Shown here: piece by piece, positions 2,713-19,423 of the stretch
Layout of the letters: each line of letters begins with the position of its first letter
Position numbering within the stretch: the stretch's first letter is position 1
Source of the DNA: Maribacter aquimaris
GTDB lineage: Bacteria > Bacteroidota > Bacteroidia > Flavobacteriales > Flavobacteriaceae
DNA length: 64,000 nt
Direction of reading: 5' to 3'
NCBI RefSeq assembly: GCF_014596745.1
Contig: NZ_JABTCF010000002.1
Location: 248,001 to 312,000, forward strand
Position numbers and translations under genes: made by a program
The notes under the pieces: generated by a model
What the model was told of the DNA's origin: nothing
Database searches by the model: none
Seen by the model: only the letters and a program-made list of their open reading frames with translations

Positions 2713-4899
2713 ATGGATATATTTACAAATATGAATAAACGCCATATGCTCTTGCTTTTAATGGTTGGTTTTGTGACCATTACATTTGGGCAAGGGAAGA
2801 AGAAAATCACCATTGAAGAAATTTATAGAGGGGCTTTTAGAACCAGTAGTATGGAAGAGCTCCGATCTATGGAAAACGGAGCGCAGTACACCTTACTGGA
2901 TTATGATCGATCTAGCAACGCTACGCGTATTGATAAATATGATTACCAGACCTTGGAAAAGGTTGAAACAATCGTAAGTTCTTCCGAAAGTGACCATGTC
3001 CCCGGTTTTAGCTCCTATGCTTTTAGTAAGGATGAAAAGAAGGTCCTATTGGCTACGGAACTCGAATCAATCTATAGGCGCTCTACCTTGGGTATATATT
3101 TTGTGTATGATATTGGTTCGAAGACTATAGTCAAGGTGTCGAACGCGAAAATCCAAGAACCGTTGCTTTCACCTGATGGCAGTAAAGTGGCCTATGTCAT
3201 GGCTAACAATATTTATATTTTTGATATAGCTGGCGGAACGACAAAACAAATCACTCAGGATGGCGTATTAAACAAAGTCATCAATGGCGTTACCGATTGG
3301 GTCTATGAAGAGGAATTTGCTTTTGTCAGGGCTTTTGCTTGGAATTCAAACGGTACTAAAATCGCATTTCTTCGCTTTGATGAGACTGATGTTCCTGAGT
3401 TTTCTATGGATGTATATGGACAGGACCTCTATCAGCAACAGTATGTCTTTAAATATCCTAAGGCAGGGGAGAACAATGCATTGGTTTCCCTACATATGTA
3501 CGATGTGAAATCTGGAAATACCTCTAAGGTCGATTTGGACGACCCGTATTATATTCCACGTATCAAATGGATGAACAATGCCGATGATTTAAGTGTAACC
3601 ACACTCAACCGTCATCAAGATCATTTGAAATTATATGCGGTGAATGCTAAGGATAATTCCGTTAATGTGCTTTTAGAGGAAAAGGACAAAGCCTATGTCG
3701 ATATCAATGATAATCTGACTTTTTTGGCCGATGATAGTTTTATCTGGACCAGTGAGCGGGATGGGTATAATCATTTGTACCTCTATGCTTCAGACGGTAA
3801 ACTGATGAATCAAATAACCAAAGGGGATTGGGAAGTGACCGATTACTATGGGTATGACCAGAATGAGGATAAGATCTATTACCAGTCCACAGAGAATGGA
3901 TCGATCAACCGGGGGGTATATAGTATTGGGAGCAATGGGAAAAAGAAAAAAGCACTGGCAGTGGAAACAGGAACGAATGCGGCATCCTTCAGTGCGGATT
4001 TCTCATATTTTATAAATACCTATTCCAGTGCGACAACGCCTTACCGATTTACCCTGCACAAGGCACTGACCGGTGATAAGTTGAAGGATATAAAGGACAA
4101 TCAGGTGCTTGCGGATATGCTCAAAGGGTATGATGCTTCCCCTAAGGAATTTTCAACCTTGACCATCAATGGCAATGATTTGAATATGTATATGATCAAA
4201 CCGTCGGATTTTGATGCTTCAAAAGAATATCCTTTATTGATGTACCAATATAGTGGTCCAGGCTCCCAAACGGTGGCCAATCGCTGGGGTGGTGCAAATG
4301 ATTATTGGCATCAAATGTTGGCTTCCGAAGGGTATATTATTGCCTGCGTCGATGGTAGGGGAACAGGTTTTAAAGGAAAGGATTTTAAGAAAGTCACCCA
4401 AAAAGAGCTAGGAAAATATGAGGTCGAGGATCAAATCGAGGCGGCTAAAAAACTTAGTGCACTATCTTATATCGATGAAGATCGTACAGGAATTTGGGGA
4501 TGGAGTTATGGAGGCTTTATGTCTACCAATTGTATTTTAAAGGGCAATGATGTCTTCGAGACGGCTATTGCCGTGGCTCCTGTTACGTCATGGCGGTTTT
4601 ATGATACCATTTATACAGAACGTTATATGCAGACTCCACAAGAGAATGCAAGCGGCTATGATGACAACTCTCCGTTCAACTATCCCGAATTATTAAAAGG
4701 TAACTTTCTTTTGGTACATGGCTCAGGGGATGATAACGTGCATGTGCAGAATACCATGCGAATGGTTGAAGCCTTGGTTCAAGCGAACAAACAGTTCGAT
4801 TGGGCGATTTACCCCGATAAAAACCATGGGATATATGGTGGGTATACCCGAATTCATCTATTTACAAAAATGACCAATTTCATTAAAGAAAATCTATAA
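2713..4899 (+). CDS. Dipeptidyl peptidase IV (S9 family peptidase)
   Basis: A 728-residue secreted prolyl dipeptidyl peptidase: an N-terminal eight-bladed beta-propeller (about 50-480) and a C-terminal alpha/beta hydrolase. The catalytic triad is Ser598 (GWSYGGF), Asp673 (HGSGDDNVH) and His705 (DKNHGIYGG), with the same Asp-His spacing as human DPP4; the double-Glu motif that holds the substrate N-terminus is DWVYEEEF (195-202). The protein removes X-Pro dipeptides from the periplasmic or surface face. The second ATG at 2731 gives a better signal peptide (MNKRHMLLLLMVGF) and may be the true start. Two peptide transporter genes follow 15 bases later, fitting a peptide-scavenging operon. Confidence 0.94.
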   Translation: MDIFTNMNKRHMLLLLMVGFVTITFGQGKKKITIEEIYRGAFRTSSMEELRSMENGAQYTLLDYDRSSNATRIDKYDYQTLEKVETIVSSSESDHVPGFSSYAFSKDEKKVLLATELESIYRRSTLGIYFVYDIGSKTIVKVSNAKIQEPLLSPDGSKVAYVMANNIYIFDIAGGTTKQITQDGVLNKVINGVTDWVYEEEFAFVRAFAWNSNGTKIAFLRFDETDVPEFSMDVYGQDLYQQQYVFKYPKAGENNALVSLHMYDVKSGNTSKVDLDDPYYIPRIKWMNNADDLSVTTLNRHQDHLKLYAVNAKDNSVNVLLEEKDKAYVDINDNLTFLADDSFIWTSERDGYNHLYLYASDGKLMNQITKGDWEVTDYYGYDQNEDKIYYQSTENGSINRGVYSIGSNGKKKKALAVETGTNAASFSADFSYFINTYSSATTPYRFTLHKALTGDKLKDIKDNQVLADMLKGYDASPKEFSTLTINGNDLNMYMIKPSDFDASKEYPLLMYQYSGPGSQTVANRWGGANDYWHQMLASEGYIIACVDGRGTGFKGKDFKKVTQKELGKYEVEDQIEAAKKLSALSYIDEDRTGIWGWSYGGFMSTNCILKGNDVFETAIAVAPVTSWRFYDTIYTERYMQTPQENASGYDDNSPFNYPELLKGNFLLVHGSGDDNVHVQNTMRMVEALVQANKQFDWAIYPDKNHGIYGGYTRIHLFTKMTNFIKENL

Positions 4900-13291: not shown

Positions 13292-15487
13292 ATGAGAAGG
13301 AACTTGGCCTATGCCCTAACCGTGATGCTTGTTGCAGTCGCATCTTGCAGTTTCACCAATAAATCCTATGAGTTTGAGGGTGATGACAAGGATAAATTGT
13401 TGTTGGACCTGATTACGTATGTTTTGGAAAAAGGGCATTACGAACCCAAACAGATCGATGATGATTTTTCGGTGAATGTATTTGAGGATTTTATCGATGT
13501 CCTTGATCCTACAAAAAGATACTTCTTACAGAGTGATATCATGGATTTTGAAAAGTATAAATTTCAAATCGATGATCAAATCAACAATACCGACATCACT
13601 TTCTTTAACGTGGTCTACAACCGGCTCATAGAACGGATGAACGATGCAAAATTAATCTACAAGGAAGTATTGGATGTTCCTTTTGATTATTCCGTTGAGG
13701 AAAGCATTAGTATAAAATATGAGGACGAACCTTTTGCCGCTTCCAGGGAGGAGCTTAAGGAACGATGGAGAAAACAATTGAAGTATGCTACCTTAGGTAC
13801 CTATGACTCTAAACTGACCCAATCTGCAAAACAGCCAAAGATTTCCAAAAAGGTAAAAAACGAACAGGTTGAAACGACCGTAGAGCATCCTGGTATTTCA
13901 GACGAGGAATTGGGGAAGGCACTAACACCGGAAGAAGCGGAAAAAGAAGCAAGGGAGACAACAAAGAAAACCTTGGATGAGTTTTTTGATTTTATCGATG
14001 ATTTGGAACGTAAGGATTGGTTTGTACAATATATCAATACCATTGTTGATGAATTTGACCCCCACACCTATTATTTTGCTCCTGAGGATAAGGAAAAGTT
14101 TGATGTGAGCATGTCGGGTAAATTTGAGGGTATCGGAGCGCGATTGCAAAAGAAACCCGAAGGGGCCAAGATCGTGGAAATCATTTCGGGTGGACCGGTT
14201 TGGAGAGACCAGCGTATGGAAGTTGGTGATGAGATCATCCGGGTAGGCCAAGATGGTAATGATCCTGTAGACATTGTAGGCATGCGATTGGATGATGCCA
14301 TTAAATTGATCAAAGGCCCAGAAGGTACCGTAGTTGATTTAACAGTACGGAAAGTCGATGGTTCGATCGAGGTCATTTCTTTGACAAGGGATGTGGTTGA
14401 ATTGGAGGAATCCTATGCCAAATCTGCCAGTATCATAAAAGGGGACCAAAAATTCGGTCTTATCGATCTTCCTAAATTTTATGTCGATTTCAATGATTAT
14501 TCTGAACGGAATGCAGCGACCGATGTAGCCAAGGAGGTTGATCGTTTAAAGGAGGAAGGCGTTGAGGGATTGATTCTTGATTTACGTGATAATGGAGGTG
14601 GTTCATTGAAAACAGTTGTTGAAATGGCCGGATTGTTCATTAAGGATGGTCCGATAGTACAAGTGCGGTCCAATGGAAAAGGCAAGGATGTTTATGACGA
14701 CAAGGATGAGCGCATTCAATGGGACGGACCTTTAGTGATCTTGGTCAATGAGTTATCAGCTTCGGCTTCCGAAATTTTGGCAGCTGCCATGCAGGATTAT
14801 AAACGGGCCATAGTTATTGGTAGTAAGCAGACCTTTGGTAAAGGAACGGTCCAAAATGTGATTCCTTTGGAAAATATTGTACGAAGCAATGAGCATGGCG
14901 ATTTAGGGGCCATAAAGTTAACGACCCAGAAGTTTTATAGGATCAATGGTGGCTCTACCCAGTTGGAAGGCGTGAAAAGTGATGTTGTAGTACCGGATAA
15001 GTATAGCTATATCGATTTGGGTGAAAGGGATCAATCGAATCCATTGAAATGGGATAAGATCACCCCAGCGGAGTATAAAATATGGAACGGGTATATCGAT
15101 TATGAGCAAACCATAGCCAACAGTGAAAAGCGGATGGCAGCAAACCCTCAAATAAAATTAATCGAGGAAAATGCCAAATGGATCAAAGATCAACAGGATG
15201 AAAATCTTATTTCATTGAACTATGATGTTTATAAAGAAGAAGAGACTAAAGACAAGAAAAAATCCGATTACTTTAAATCATTGACCGAATACGATTCTAA
15301 ATTGACTTTTGGATCATTGAAGTATGAGGAGGAATTGTTTACCAAAGATGAGGACTTAAGGGAGAAGAGAGACCGTTGGCACAAGAATTTAGCCAAGGAC
15401 GTTTATGTGGAAGAGGCCGTGAATGTATTGCAAGACCTTAAGGGCAATAACCTGAAGCATGCCAAATTGGCTAGTGTGAAGGGGTAG
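13292..15487 (+). CDS. Carboxy-terminal processing protease (S41, Prc/Tsp type)
   Basis: A 731-residue periplasmic serine protease with an N-terminal signal that looks like a lipoprotein signal (VAVASC, Cys19). A helical N-terminal domain, a PDZ domain (about 275-355, around GKFEGIGARL and VGDEIIRVGQ) and the S41 catalytic core follow. The Ser-Lys dyad is Ser491 (LSASASEIL) and Lys517 (TFGKGTVQ), matching E. coli Prc. The C-terminal helical DUF3340-like region is present (about 560-700). Prc-type enzymes degrade or trim envelope proteins from the C-terminus. An acidic linker rich in Glu and Lys lies around 185-225. A strong terminator ends the transcript. Confidence 0.94.
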   Translation: MRRNLAYALTVMLVAVASCSFTNKSYEFEGDDKDKLLLDLITYVLEKGHYEPKQIDDDFSVNVFEDFIDVLDPTKRYFLQSDIMDFEKYKFQIDDQINNTDITFFNVVYNRLIERMNDAKLIYKEVLDVPFDYSVEESISIKYEDEPFAASREELKERWRKQLKYATLGTYDSKLTQSAKQPKISKKVKNEQVETTVEHPGISDEELGKALTPEEAEKEARETTKKTLDEFFDFIDDLERKDWFVQYINTIVDEFDPHTYYFAPEDKEKFDVSMSGKFEGIGARLQKKPEGAKIVEIISGGPVWRDQRMEVGDEIIRVGQDGNDPVDIVGMRLDDAIKLIKGPEGTVVDLTVRKVDGSIEVISLTRDVVELEESYAKSASIIKGDQKFGLIDLPKFYVDFNDYSERNAATDVAKEVDRLKEEGVEGLILDLRDNGGGSLKTVVEMAGLFIKDGPIVQVRSNGKGKDVYDDKDERIQWDGPLVILVNELSASASEILAAAMQDYKRAIVIGSKQTFGKGTVQNVIPLENIVRSNEHGDLGAIKLTTQKFYRINGGSTQLEGVKSDVVVPDKYSYIDLGERDQSNPLKWDKITPAEYKIWNGYIDYEQTIANSEKRMAANPQIKLIEENAKWIKDQQDENLISLNYDVYKEEETKDKKKSDYFKSLTEYDSKLTFGSLKYEEELFTKDEDLREKRDRWHKNLAKDVYVEEAVNVLQDLKGNNLKHAKLASVKG

Positions 15488-15513
15488 AAAGCTTAATAAA
15501 TACTATTGTTTAT

Positions 15514-15544
15514 AAACCCTGACCGTTAGCGTCAGGGTTTTTTT
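15514..15544 (+). terminator. Rho-independent terminator after the S41 protease gene
   Basis: A perfect 10-bp stem (AAACCCTGAC, 514-523, with GTCAGGGTTT, 531-540) and a seven-base loop are followed by a T run, 27 bases after the stop codon. It separates the protease gene from the repeat island. Confidence 0.92.
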
Positions 15545-15693
15545 GTGCTCTTGATTATCGTAGAAATACGGTATGCCCTACCTCGTCCATCCTACAATGG
15601 GATATATCTATTTTTCGCGCCACGAATAACTTGTATGAATGTTTTTTGGGGAGTAGTGGAAGGTTGTTGTATCAAGAGTTGCTATAAATAAAA
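15545..15693. other. Gene-free spacer before the repeat island
   Basis: About 150 bases between the terminator and the first repeat core. Short open frames occur but none has a recognisable product, start signal or domain. I see no promoter matching the Bacteroidota consensus and no convincing hairpin. Confidence 0.5.
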
Positions 15694-16226
15694 TGTCAGG
15701 TCGAGCGCAGTCGAGAACTAATAAAAAGATATAAGGATAGACAATGTAAGTTCGAGTGCAATGGGGAACCCGTCAAAATGATAGAATTGGCCTGTCAGGT
15801 CGAGCGCAGTGGTGAACTTGTCATAATGATAGAATTAGCTTGTCAGGTCGAGCGCAGTCGAGACCTCATTCATAAAGAAAGGGCCGATCAATTATCAAAT
15901 CTAGCGCAGTCGAGAACTAATAAAAAGATATAAGGATAGACAATGTAAGGTCAAGCGCAGATGGGAACTCGTTTAGGTAATAGAAGAACCGGACTGTCAG
16001 TACGAGCGCAGTGGTGAACTTGTTAGAATGATAGAATTAGCCTGTCAGTTCGAGCGCAGTCGAGACCTCATTCATAAAGTAAGAAGAACCGATCAATTAT
16101 CAAATCTAGCGCAGTCGAGAACTAATTTAAAAGATATAAGGATAGACAATGTAAGTTCGAGTGCAGATGGGAACCCGTCAAGATGATAGAGGAACCGGAC
16201 TTTCAGTACGAGCGCAGTCGAGAACC
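15694..16226 (+). repeat. Higher-order tandem repeat, block 1 (about 200-bp units)
   Basis: Imperfect tandem array. The reference position of the unit, TGTCAG(G/T)TCGAGCGCAG followed by TCGAGACC, is at 15841 and 16043 (period 202), preceded by a partial unit from 15694 and followed by one ending at 16226. Each unit holds four related subunits about 50 bp apart: GGTCGAGCGCAGTCGAGACC, CTAGCGCAGTCGAGAAC, TTCGAGTGCAGATGGGAAC and GTCGAGCGCAGTGGTGAAC. About 11 cores can be counted. The inter-core stretches also recur every fourth core, for example GATATAAGGATAGACAATGT. No open reading frame runs through the block. Confidence 0.93.
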
Positions 16227-16239
16227 AAAAACCTATTAG

Positions 16240-16365
16240 GTTTATATACTGGAATGCAAAAACGGCCTACGGTACACGGGTAGTACCAACTACTTGGGCA
16301 GAGGTTTCGATGAACATCAGTTCGAGAGTAAGAAGACCTGTTTCACCTTAAAGTGTAAACCTTGA
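16240..16365 (+). pseudogene. GIY-YIG nuclease relic (N-terminal part only)
   Basis: A 41-codon open stretch reads VYILECKNGLRYTGSTNYL and continues GRGFDEHQFESKK to a TGA at 16363-16365. This matches the GIY-YIG core pattern (YIL.C..G..YTG.T..L..R...H) of UvrC/Slx1-type single-domain nucleases. The usual start residues are missing (a TAG lies directly upstream at 16237) and the C-terminal half with the catalytic Glu is absent, so it cannot encode a full enzyme. Repeat cores in opposite orientations lie on its two sides (about 16204-16226 and 16368-16394). Identification is by eye from motif pattern. Confidence 0.62.
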
Positions 16366-16367
16366 TG

Positions 16368-16394
16368 GAGGTCTCGACTGCGCTCGACCTGACA
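16368..16394 (-). repeat. Inverted copy of the repeat core (left arm of a 27-bp perfect inverted repeat)
   Basis: This is the only copy of the core on the opposite strand inside the island. Its reverse complement is identical over 27 bases to 16852-16878, which opens repeat block 2. The two arms bracket 457 bases that contain the cas2 relic. It also forms an imperfect inverted pair with the last core of block 1, bracketing the GIY-YIG relic. Confidence 0.93.
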
Positions 16395-16495
16395 AACGAA
16401 GACTTATGGTGATGTGAAGGACACTTACGCAGTTGTAATGACAAATGAAAAGATTTTGGTATTCCCATTTTTGTGATTATGCCGAGAGCAATAAG

Positions 16496-16842
16496 ATGGA
16501 TACAAACCGATTTAGCCGTATAAACCAGTATAGAAGTATGTGGGTACTTTATTGTTTGATTTACCGACAGAAACACGAACCGATCGTAAGATAGCGACAC
16601 GATTCCGGAAAAATCTATTGGATGTTGGATTTACGATGTTCCAATTTAGTATATACCTACGTTTTTGCCCTAGTCGCGAAAATGCCGGGGTACATATAAA
16701 AGGAACGAAATCCAACCTGCCAATAAAAAGCAAGCTCTGCATTATGCAGATTACCGACAAGCAATTTGGGATGATCGAATTGTTCCACGGTCAGAAAGAA
16801 GCAGCATCCGAAACCCCTACCCAACAATTGGAACTTTTTTAG
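16496..16842 (+). pseudogene. cas2: CRISPR-associated endonuclease Cas2, apparently frameshifted
   Basis: The frame from the GTG at 16540 encodes a Cas2 of the type II (Bacteroidota) kind: LLFDLPTETRTDRKIATRF, then LLDVGFTMFQFSIYLRFCPS, RENAGVHIKGTK, MQITDKQFGMIELFHGQ and the typical end PTQQLELF. The expected N-terminus of this family is present just upstream in another frame from ATG 16496 (MDTNRFSRINQYRSMWVL). The frames join at about 16549, where restoring one base would give the usual MWVLVLFDLPTET. So one base seems to have been lost, or the sequence has an error; use of the GTG start would yield a 100-residue protein missing part of strand beta-1. No cas1, cas9 or CRISPR array accompanies it. 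Repeat block 2 begins ten bases after the stop. Confidence 0.85.
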
Positions 16843-16851
16843 CATACAGAA

Positions 16852-17590
16852 TGTCAGGTCGAGCGCAGTCGAGACCTCATTCATAAAGAAAGGGCCGATC
16901 AATTATCAAATCTAGCGCAGTCGAGAACTAATTAAAAGATATAAGGATAGACAATGTAGGTTCGAGTGCAGATGGGAACTCGTCAAAATGATAGAATTAG
17001 CCTGTCAGGTCGAGCGCAGTGGTGAATTTGTCATAATGATAGAATTAGCTTGTCAGGTCGAGCGCAGTCGAGACCTCATTCATAAAGAAAAGGCCGATCA
17101 ATTATCAAATCTAGCGCAGTCGAGAACTAATTAAAAGATATAAGGATAGACAATGTAGGTTCGAGTGCAGATGGGAACTCGTCAAAATGATAGAATTAGC
17201 CTGTCAGGTCGAGCGCAGTGGTGAACTTGTTAGAATGATAGAATTAGCCTGTCAGTTCGAGCGCAGTCGAGACCTCATTCATAAAGTAAGAAGAACCGAT
17301 CAATTATCAAATCTAGCGCAGTCGAGAACTAATAAAAAGATATAAGGATAGACAATGTAAGTTCGAGTGCAGATGGGGACCCGTCAAGATGATAGAGGAA
17401 CCGGACTGTCAGTACGAGCGCAGTGGTGAACTTGTTAGAATGATAGAATTAGCCTGTCAGGTCGAGCGCAGTCGAGACCTCATTCATAAGAAAGAAGAAC
17501 CGATCAATTATCAAATCTAGCGCAGTCGAGACCTCAATCGTAAAGAAAGAATCAATTAGGTGTCAGGTCGAGCGCATTCGAGACCTTGAT
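16852..17590 (+). repeat. Higher-order tandem repeat, block 2 (about 199-bp units)
   Basis: Continuation of the block 1 repeat family. Unit reference positions are 16852, 17051, 17250 and 17455 (periods 199, 199 and 205), with a last degenerate core ending near 17590. About 15 cores at 46-57-base spacing are visible. Units differ by point changes such as GGTCGAG/GTTCGAG, AAGAAAGGGCCG/AAGTAAGAAGAACCG and TCATAATG/TTAGAATG, and the same variants appear in block 1, so the blocks have exchanged or duplicated units. The first 27 bases form the right arm of the inverted repeat around cas2. Confidence 0.93.
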
Positions 17591-17675
17591 AAGGGCTTTT
17601 ATATTTCTGCAACATCCTCTAAAAATTAGGATACCAGCTTATTATGTCGGGGTGTCCCTGTGAACTATCCTTAAT

Positions 17676-17694
17676 CCTTCGACTGCGCTCAGGG
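17676..17694. repeat. Single dispersed repeat copy, CCTTCGACTGCGCTCAGGG
   Basis: A 19-base imperfect palindrome related to the reverse complement of the array core (shared TCGACTGCGCTC). Elements of this kind are, from memory, common between genes in Bacteroidota; here one lies about 85 bases past the tandem array in the opposite orientation to it. Confidence 0.7.
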
Positions 17695-17744
17695 CTTGAA
17701 TTAAAGAACGGACATCGAAGTTCCAAATAAGGAAGTTGGAAATA

Positions 17745-17765
17745 ATATAGCGTGTTACGCTATAT
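17745..17765. promoter_or_regulatory. Palindrome ATATAGCGT-GTT-ACGCTATAT
   Basis: A perfect inverted repeat of 9 bp with a three-base centre, AT-rich and lacking a T tract, so it looks like an operator rather than a terminator. I recall similar TAGCG/CGCTA palindromes ahead of higBA-type toxin-antitoxin genes; no such intact gene follows. Confidence 0.45.
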
Positions 17766-17885
17766 TTAGTAAAGCAACGAAGAAAACCTTGAGGTAGAAC
17801 GTATCCAAAACAATTCACGGCGGGTCATTGCTATGCGCCATATTTTTATGCTTCATGGTTAGGAAGGACCTTTTATAGGAGGGCT

Positions 17886-17928
17886 AAAAAAATAAGATGC
17901 CCCGATTTTTAAAAAGCGAGGCATCTTA
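17886..17928 (-). terminator. Rho-independent terminator of the sugar porter gene
   Basis: Stem TAAGATGCC (893-901) pairs with GGCATCTTA (920-928), with inner partial pairing, and on the minus strand is followed by a run of seven T (complement of 886-892). It lies 44 bases beyond the stop codon of the transporter gene. Confidence 0.88.
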
Positions 17929-17971
17929 AACATGATTTATGCACTATATGAAATAGACATGGCACAAGTGT

Positions 17972-19423
17972 TTATTTCTTAGCAAATAAGGCTTCCATTT
18001 CTTCCAATGTCTTGCCTTTGGTTTCAGGGATGTATTTATAGACAAACACAATAATGATTATGATAAAGAAAGAAAACAGGAAGTAGGGAAGGGCATTGTT
18101 CCAAGTACCTCCGTTCATGATCAAGCCATTCGACTCGCTTTCAACCACTATAGGGAACGTCTGTGATACAAAATAGTTGGCCAACCACTGTACGGCCACG
18201 GCTACAGCCATAGCTGTACTCCGTATTTTGTTGGGGAACATTTCAGACAATAACACCCAAACAATAGGGCCCATAGACATGGCGAACGAACCTATGAAAA
18301 TCAGAACACCGATCAAACTGATAATACCTTCATTGGTAGATATGGTTGGCAGGCCAGCAGAATTCACGCCGGCATAATCACTGAAATAAAGTGTAAAGCC
18401 CATCAATAAAAACCCGATAAGCATTCCAAAACCTCCAATGATCAATAGTGGTTTTCTACCTAGTTTATCCACAGTGAACATGGCGACAAACGTAAAGATA
18501 AGATTTACGGAGGCCAATAAGATCTGTTGTAAAAGAACATCATCCTGTCCAAAACCAAGGGCCTGCTCAAATATATCGGCCCCATAATACAGTACTGCAT
18601 TGATTCCGGTAAATTGTTGCAACGCCGATAATACCGTACCGATAATCACAATAGGAAGCATGGTTTTATTGAAGATGGATGCTTTTGCCTTCGTGCTTTC
18701 CGCTTTTATGGAATCTTTGATCGCTTTTATTTCCTTTACCGCTATTTCTTCACCGTGTATTCTGGTCAATATGTTTTCGGCTTCTTCCTCTTTTCCTTTG
18801 ATCATTAACCAACGTGGACTTTTAGGTACGAAAAACAAGAGCCCCAAGAAGATACCTGCTGGTATCATTTCTGACCAGAACATGTTACGCCATCCAAAGG
18901 CTATATTCTCACTTTCGCTCAATTCGGAACCAATAAAATAAGTAACCAAAAAGACCACAAAGAAACCAATGACCACTGCAAGTTGATAGAAGGTAACCAA
19001 AATACCCCTGTTTTTTGCCGGGGCAATCTCTGCTATGTACATTGGGGCGTTCATTGAGGCGATACCTATGGCAATACCCCCGATGAGTCTAAAAATGACC
19101 AATAAGGTGGTCGATTCCGGTAATATGCTGGGTAATCCTGATCCCCACGCTGAAATAAAAAATAGAACAGCTGAAATAATCAAGGAATTCTTACGACCAA
19201 TAGCCTTACTGATAAGTCCTGCCGAAGCCGCCCCTGCCAAAGCTCCTAATAGGGCGCTACTAACAATAAAGCCTTTTAAGGCTCCGGTAAGTTCGAAATA
19301 TTTTGAAAAATAGAACTGGGTGCCATTGATGACCCCTGTATCATAACCAAATAATAACCCGCCCAGGGTTATTACAAGGGTGATAAAATAAATGTTGATT
19401 TTTGCGGTAGATGTTTTACCCAT
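17972..19423 (-). CDS. Sugar porter family MFS transporter
   Basis: A 483-residue, 12-helix major facilitator of the sugar porter family (XylE/GlcP/GalP-like), which imports a hexose or pentose with protons. Family signatures are GGLLFGYDTGVINGT in helix 1, GRKNSL after helix 2, RLIGGIAIGIASMNAP..IAEIAP, PKSPRWLM after helix 6, QQFTGINAVLYYG in helix 7, VDKLGRKPL and PETKGKTLEEME at the C-terminus. The QQxxGIN motif binds the sugar. The gene stands alone, ending in its own terminator beside the repeat island, so no neighbour suggests the sugar. Confidence 0.95.
   Translation of the reverse strand: MGKTSTAKINIYFITLVITLGGLLFGYDTGVINGTQFYFSKYFELTGALKGFIVSSALLGALAGAASAGLISKAIGRKNSLIISAVLFFISAWGSGLPSILPESTTLLVIFRLIGGIAIGIASMNAPMYIAEIAPAKNRGILVTFYQLAVVIGFFVVFLVTYFIGSELSESENIAFGWRNMFWSEMIPAGIFLGLLFFVPKSPRWLMIKGKEEEAENILTRIHGEEIAVKEIKAIKDSIKAESTKAKASIFNKTMLPIVIIGTVLSALQQFTGINAVLYYGADIFEQALGFGQDDVLLQQILLASVNLIFTFVAMFTVDKLGRKPLLIIGGFGMLIGFLLMGFTLYFSDYAGVNSAGLPTISTNEGIISLIGVLIFIGSFAMSMGPIVWVLLSEMFPNKIRSTAMAVAVAVQWLANYFVSQTFPIVVESESNGLIMNGGTWNNALPYFLFSFFIIIIIVFVYKYIPETKGKTLEEMEALFAKK

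Follow-up and report, generated by a model that had tools for sequence, protein, structure and literature searches.

A decayed GIY-YIG nuclease gene between inverted TGTC-tagged cores in Maribacter aquimaris, and a candidate partner for a class of bacterial palindromic repeats

The window locus and its congeners

The window analyzed here, a 64,000-nucleotide stretch of the Maribacter aquimaris genome, contains at positions 15694–17586 an array of about 20 plus-strand and degenerate copies of a short palindromic repeat (hereafter, the core), arranged in higher-order units of ~200 bp around an element that consists of a core, a fragment of a nuclease gene and an inverted core. The gene fragment is a plus-strand frame (+1) of 41 codons at 16240–16362 (VYILECKNGLRYTGSTNYLGRGFDEHQFESKKTCFTLKCKP) that is preceded by TAG (16237–16239), followed by TGA (16363–16365) and contains no start codon. 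A first-pass annotation, made from the letters alone, had considered this fragment to be GIY-YIG-like and proposed its comparison to a GIY-YIG profile. That comparison supports the assignment, as the fragment matches Pfam PF01541 at 24.8 bits (E 2.7e-5; curated cut-off 22.6), and the same relic was found independently when the whole genome was searched with PF01541 (contig C12, 264234–264353). The upstream core (16201–16226, plus strand) reads TTTCAGTACGAGCGCAGTCGAGAACC, that is, TTTC-A-GTAC-GAGCGCAGTCGA-GAAC-C, in which both tag and stem have decayed, TTTC being a decayed TGTC. The downstream core (16369–16394) is on the minus strand a perfect TGTCAGGTCGAGCGCAGTCGAGACCT (TGTC-A-GGTC-GAGCGCAGTCGA-GACC-T) and is the sole inverted core of the array. 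The annotation's placement of the fragment between a core and its inverted copy is confirmed.

Alignment of the relic with an intact gene on contig C5 of the same genome and with the corresponding copy in a sister species (G299) revealed that it retains the 5′ half of the gene and the terminal bases adjoining the inverted core, and that the middle and C-terminal part are gone, including the part with the catalytic glutamate. As the 3′ end beside the inverted core survives, and as the sister-species copy is full-length yet frameshifted, the window copy, which represents the N-terminal half of the gene, is an internally deleted relic and more than a truncated one.

Downstream of the element are a frameshifted cas2 relic (16496–16842, plus strand; PF09827, 47.5 bits in the 16540–16839 frame) and a single degenerate CRISPR repeat (17657–17709), which are the remains of a type II-C CRISPR-Cas locus. 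Within this repeat, between CCTGTGAACTATCCTTAA and AATTAAAGAAC, there is a tagless minus-strand core, CAAGCCCTGAGCGCAGTCGAAGGA (17675–17698), and the last CRISPR repeat of one congener, G297, has extra bases at the corresponding place.

The ctp peptidase gene (13292–15487) is a common anchor upstream of the site in congeners. Downstream of it, G297 has cas9-cas1-cas2 and a CRISPR array with no core, and G298 has cas9, cas1, three cores, a broken GIY-YIG gene, an inverted core, cas2, two cores and an array; the CRISPR repeats of both arrays (L258 and L259) are 46–47 bp. The sister species G299 has kept cores, the full-length frameshifted GIY-YIG gene, cas2 and further cores, and neither cas9 nor cas1 was found in its corresponding interval. 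The order in the window is that of G299, with a shortened GIY-YIG gene, a frameshift in cas2 and amplified cores. Nine other matching congeners have no core within roughly 1.5 kb beyond ctp, a reading distance that the cores of G298 exceed. The simplest reading, which was made from gene order with no dated tree, is that an ancestor acquired one unit between cas1 and cas2, after which the CRISPR locus decayed. In the lineage of the window the unit would have entered a type II-C locus between these two genes, cas9 and cas1 would have been lost, the nuclease and cas2 would have decayed and the cores amplified, with an intact partner gene remaining on contig C5. No target duplication was definable at the window locus, where the junctions are too diverged. 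There were also no clean or usable empty-site junctions at three core pairs elsewhere (on C12, at C1:635.7k and in G296), because the C12 pair lies inside a larger ~190-bp repeat and the C1 pair lies in a diverged segment.

Sequence, structure and dispersal of the core

The core motif obtained from 319 distinct copies is TGTC-N-stem-GAGCGNAGTCGA-stem′, with a stem of 4 bp and a TGTC tag conserved at 90–96% per base. The stem covaries among these copies (GGTC/GACC, 150; CCTC/GAGG, 50; GTTC/GAAC, 14; CCCC/GGGG, 9; and further pairs) and the next position outside it does not. The M. aquimaris genome (4.86 Mb) contains 81 exact copies of the 16-mer TCGAGCGCAGTCGAGA and 83 matches to the tagged core pattern, vs. 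none when that pattern is read backwards; these counts and reversed controls rule out a chance motif. When folded as DNA, single cores were no more stable than their shuffles, leading us to reject a strong hairpin formed by the core on its own, and the structural case consequently rests on the covariation.

Among the dispersed copies in genomes of the genus, tag-outward pairs are frequent, each made of two cores and roughly 60–80 bp long in total. For the 64 cores located >1 kb from a GIY-YIG gene we counted 12 head-to-head, 2 tail-to-tail and 3 tandem neighbor pairs, and 32 single cores. In the genome of M. aquimaris itself the cores gather in arrays at a few places. A head-to-head pair is also found inside the ~190-bp repeat mentioned above, at C12:161200–162400 (L218), on contigs C27 and C13 and on contig C6 of G299; this larger repeat is absent at the orthologous site in several congeners.

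The features of the core are reminiscent of the CGTC-tagged REPs, a group of dispersed repeats, present in Bacteroidetes, that have an unpaired end tag (CGTC, often TGTC) and a covarying stem, form predominantly head-to-head dimers and are rarely found in large clusters (Di Nocera et al., 2013; PMC3733652). The flavobacterial core shares with them an unpaired tag at one end, the covarying stem, the dispersed copies and the occurrence of head-to-head pairs, its tag-outward pairs being comparable to both the dimers of CGTC REPs and REPINs. However, the published families have stems of 8–9 bp, loops of 4–5 nt and a CCA tail (PMC3733652), whereas in the core an outer stem of 4 covarying base pairs encloses the fixed GAGCGNAGTCGA, an inner part of 12 nt, and there is no CCA tail; the core is therefore placed outside these families. 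Unlike in CGTC REPs, large clusters are also prominent.

Linkage of the core to one subfamily of GIY-YIG genes

The first-pass annotation had raised the possibility that the core flanks related GIY-YIG genes more often than other genes. We addressed this with 80 GIY-YIG relatives, nearly all from Flavobacteriaceae, which were fetched with their flanks by protein alone, so that cores had no part in their selection. A gene was counted as bracketed if a plus core lay ≤120 bp upstream of it and an inverted core lay either at its end or ≤120 bp downstream; the controls were 991 other ORFs >500 bp away. Bracketing was found for 55 of the 80 GIY-YIG genes vs. 2 of the 991 other ORFs (Fisher p 7e-70), supporting the proposed association, and 218 of the 299 cores in these 1.49 Mb were within 300 bp of a GIY-YIG gene. 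Upstream, the core often ends at a distance of 7–20 bp from the start codon; downstream, it often touches the stop codon. Such positions, and the fact that gene-adjacent hairpins commonly act in RNA, would be consistent with the cores serving the GIY-YIG gene as terminators or as hairpins for mRNA stability. We consider this highly improbable, since one of the two cores is upstream of the start codon, the unpaired TGTC tag is conserved while the predicted folding is weak, core copies are dispersed without the gene, and an Rfam scan of 15400–18000 in the window matched no family.

The search of the M. aquimaris genome with PF01541 identified 15 places, the best match being an intact gene of ~100 codons at C5:6660–6956 (66.5 bits) that is preceded by the core TGTCCGGTCGAGCGCAGTCGAGACC and followed by an inverted core; five shortened gene copies, each with a core, lie beside it. 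Seven stretches of 10–20 kb around GIY-YIG loci of other subfamilies in the same genome contained no core at ≤2 mismatches. An association of the core with any GIY-YIG gene was accordingly rejected, and the association is specific to one subfamily. At one locus of another subfamily (L017, 9650–10460; C12:239.6–240.5 kb) there are two near-identical tandem GIY-YIG genes beside a tRNA-like sequence, with no cores nearby.

Profile matches place the intact protein in the GIY-YIG fold. Its closest solved structures by sequence profile are the UPF0213-type GIY-YIG proteins PDB 1zg2 (E 1.6e-14) and 1ywl (E 1.5e-12), which were deposited as hypothetical proteins under entry names with no repeat partner, and neither NCBIfam nor PADLOC produced a match to it. 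Residues Y7, Y17, R27, H31 and E65 are invariant in 29 intact family members; a tyrosine pair, an arginine and a glutamate are the catalytic residues of the GIY-YIG superfamily. Comparable pairs of related intact genes had dN/dS values of 0.03–0.16, from which we conclude that purifying selection has maintained the nuclease. The 80 genes occupy 25 contexts, four of which are conserved and hold 55 of the loci, and as the genes are in several conserved contexts, hopping of the gene must be infrequent. Its inheritance thus appears mainly vertical with occasional new sites, and the same is said of RAYT genes.

The identity of the core also follows the gene. The variable loop base agrees between the two cores of an element in 49 of 57 cases (shuffled mean, 39.7), a value reached in none of 10,000 shuffles when genomes are treated as independent. 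We surveyed 296 Bacteroidota genomes, again taken as independent, with a close GIY-YIG relative defined by E<1e-25 and the tables counted by hand. At least three cores were present in 24 of the 36 genomes with a close relative vs. 17 of the 260 others; within the family of M. aquimaris the corresponding counts were 18 of 18 vs. 6 of 12. Several GIY-YIG genomes that lack the main core use a loop variant, GAGCTTGTCGA, which was first noticed in flanks and then counted everywhere. Cores of this type bracket the GIY-YIG genes of G012 (C2:513954, plus; 514299, minus) and G099 (C32:136564, plus; 136965, minus), so different lineages of the gene have different core types. With either loop type counted, and the genomes still taken as independent, the numbers are 28 of 36 vs. 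26 of 260 (p 2e-17). Some core-rich genomes have no close GIY-YIG relative; in one of these, G002, there are 191 cores and a close partner was not detected.

A hand-written generic GIY-YIG probe was used in a tblastn search of plasmid records, a biased sample, and matched loci in Neisseria, Azospirillum, Sinorhizobium, Shinella, Novosphingobium, Sphingobium, Aeromonas and others. In a strict scan, tag-outward CGTC hairpins bracket 9 of the 15 loci fetched from these biased records. Counting CGTC, TGTC and CCTC hairpins together, 13.7 kb of sequence close to the genes contained 36, 80 kb of more distant sequence contained 39 and the full set of reversed sequences contained 6. The bracketing repeats are CGTC-tagged REPs of the classical type in Neisseria, Azospirillum, Shinella, Sphingobium and others, and loci of S. 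meliloti, Planktothrix and Spirosoma are also bracketed, as judged by eye, by CCTC or TGTC variants. At the proteobacterial loci the repeats agree with the CGTC REPs that Di Nocera et al. described (2013; PMC3733652). An arrangement with the gene enclosed by repeats is thus shared by dozens of related bacteria and extends to other phyla. In Azospirillum lipoferum (L167, 2983–3276; annotated) the GIY-YIG unit is placed between sufB and sufC, and a reading of the flanks puts it there in Shinella PSBB067 (L175, about 3001–3267) as well, so that two different alphaproteobacteria have it at this site.

It might be argued that GIY-YIG genes of this kind merely reside in intergenic DNA that is rich in repeats, or at hot spots for insertion, and have no functional link to the core, and the clustering of cores in arrays at few places of the M. 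aquimaris genome is in keeping with this. We nevertheless find it very unlikely: the bracketing cores are oriented and sit near the gene ends, other genes almost never have them, one GIY-YIG subfamily shows the pattern and others in the same genome do not, each change of core variant accompanies a change in gene lineage, and the layout is met again in other phyla.

A possible role for the nuclease in spread of the repeats

We favor, as the probable explanation, that the window site is a decayed minimal element in which a GIY-YIG gene is flanked by a core and an inverted core whose TGTC tags both point outward, and that the enzyme of such elements acts on the core and spreads it. The GIY-YIG protein would recognize the core's tagged hairpin, most likely in a single-stranded or extruded state (on the lagging strand, in repair or during DNA uptake), and would nick at the tag or beside it. 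Repair of these nicks could then duplicate, invert and tandemly expand cores, and occasionally either an entire core-gene-core unit or just a small core-spacer-core pair might be copied elsewhere. The GIY-YIG gene would in this way be for TGTC/CGTC-tagged palindromes what RAYT is for GTAG-tagged REPs. The comparison with REPs and RAYTs had been made in the first-pass annotation, and its anatomical part stands: as in RAYT/REPtron and REPIN systems, tagged hairpins bracket a mostly vertical nuclease gene, and small paired, tag-outward non-coding copies occur elsewhere. The resemblance does not extend to the tag and hairpin, which differ, or to the enzyme, which is a GIY-YIG protein and not an HUH tyrosine transposase of the IS200/IS605 group.

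A different role is suggested by Ssn, a Neisseria GIY-YIG nuclease that is said (Chenal, Veyrier and colleagues, about 2025) to cut single-stranded DNA at dispersed NTS repeats and to affect transformation. Like Ssn as it is reported, the protein considered here is a small single-domain GIY-YIG protein whose cognate sequence is repeated throughout the genome, and the Neisseria GIY-YIG locus that we fetched is likewise bracketed by CGTC repeats; the flavobacterial core sequence, TGTC-N-stem-GAGCGNAGTCGA-stem′, is unlike that of Ssn. The protein could therefore be a sequence-specific single-strand nuclease that serves the cell, for example by gating transforming DNA, with the dispersed cores as its sites and their spread due to ordinary duplication and recombination. 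The purifying selection on the genes and their location mostly at conserved places agree with such a host function without mobility. By itself, however, it leaves unexplained why inverted tag-outward cores enclose the gene in many lineages, and why the unit is inserted in a CRISPR locus or between sufB and sufC, and we judge it rather unlikely. If Ssn acts as reported, the pairing of enzyme and repeat as such is already known. Our own argument concerns the enclosure by inverted tag-outward cores, the insertion history and the mobility, and its additions would then be the core of flavobacteria, the statistics on bracketing, the co-variation of the loop, a connection to the question of the CGTC REPs, and the history of insertion and decay.

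Among the papers searched, none connects GIY-YIG proteins with REPs. CGTC REPs are widespread short bacterial repeats that "apparently lack a dedicated transposase," with no associated transposase gene found, and the 2013 survey left their mobilizer open (Di Nocera et al., 2013; PMC3733652). Judging from the sequences compared, the GIY-YIG enzymes are strong candidates for the partner of this large class of palindromic repeats. It is possible, and we propose it tentatively, that single-domain GIY-YIG nucleases are dedicated mobilizers of TGTC/CGTC palindromes in Bacteroidota, Proteobacteria and perhaps Cyanobacteria, with the core-gene-core unit as the autonomous form and the head-to-head core pairs as the non-autonomous form. 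As the nuclease gene is tightly linked and conserved, the question of the mobilizer can be tested at the bench with a defined substrate and enzyme. The comparison suggests that the REP way of life may have arisen with at least two unrelated nucleases, the HUH RAYT and GIY-YIG enzymes; if true, mobilization by the latter would amount to a class of REP transposition that relies on neither an HUH nor a DDE enzyme.

Two further loci have unusual arrangements. On contig C5 (L016, 6500–8650) the five truncated GIY-YIG copies form an array in which several are fused to the 5′ end of the neighboring tex-like gene, apparently at a shared AAAAAGG, an arrangement that looks like amplification via short homologies. 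In G016 (L161) a GIY-YIG gene is flanked by a core variant in which a large inner hairpin replaces the loop (TGTCACCCTGAG...TCGAAGG).
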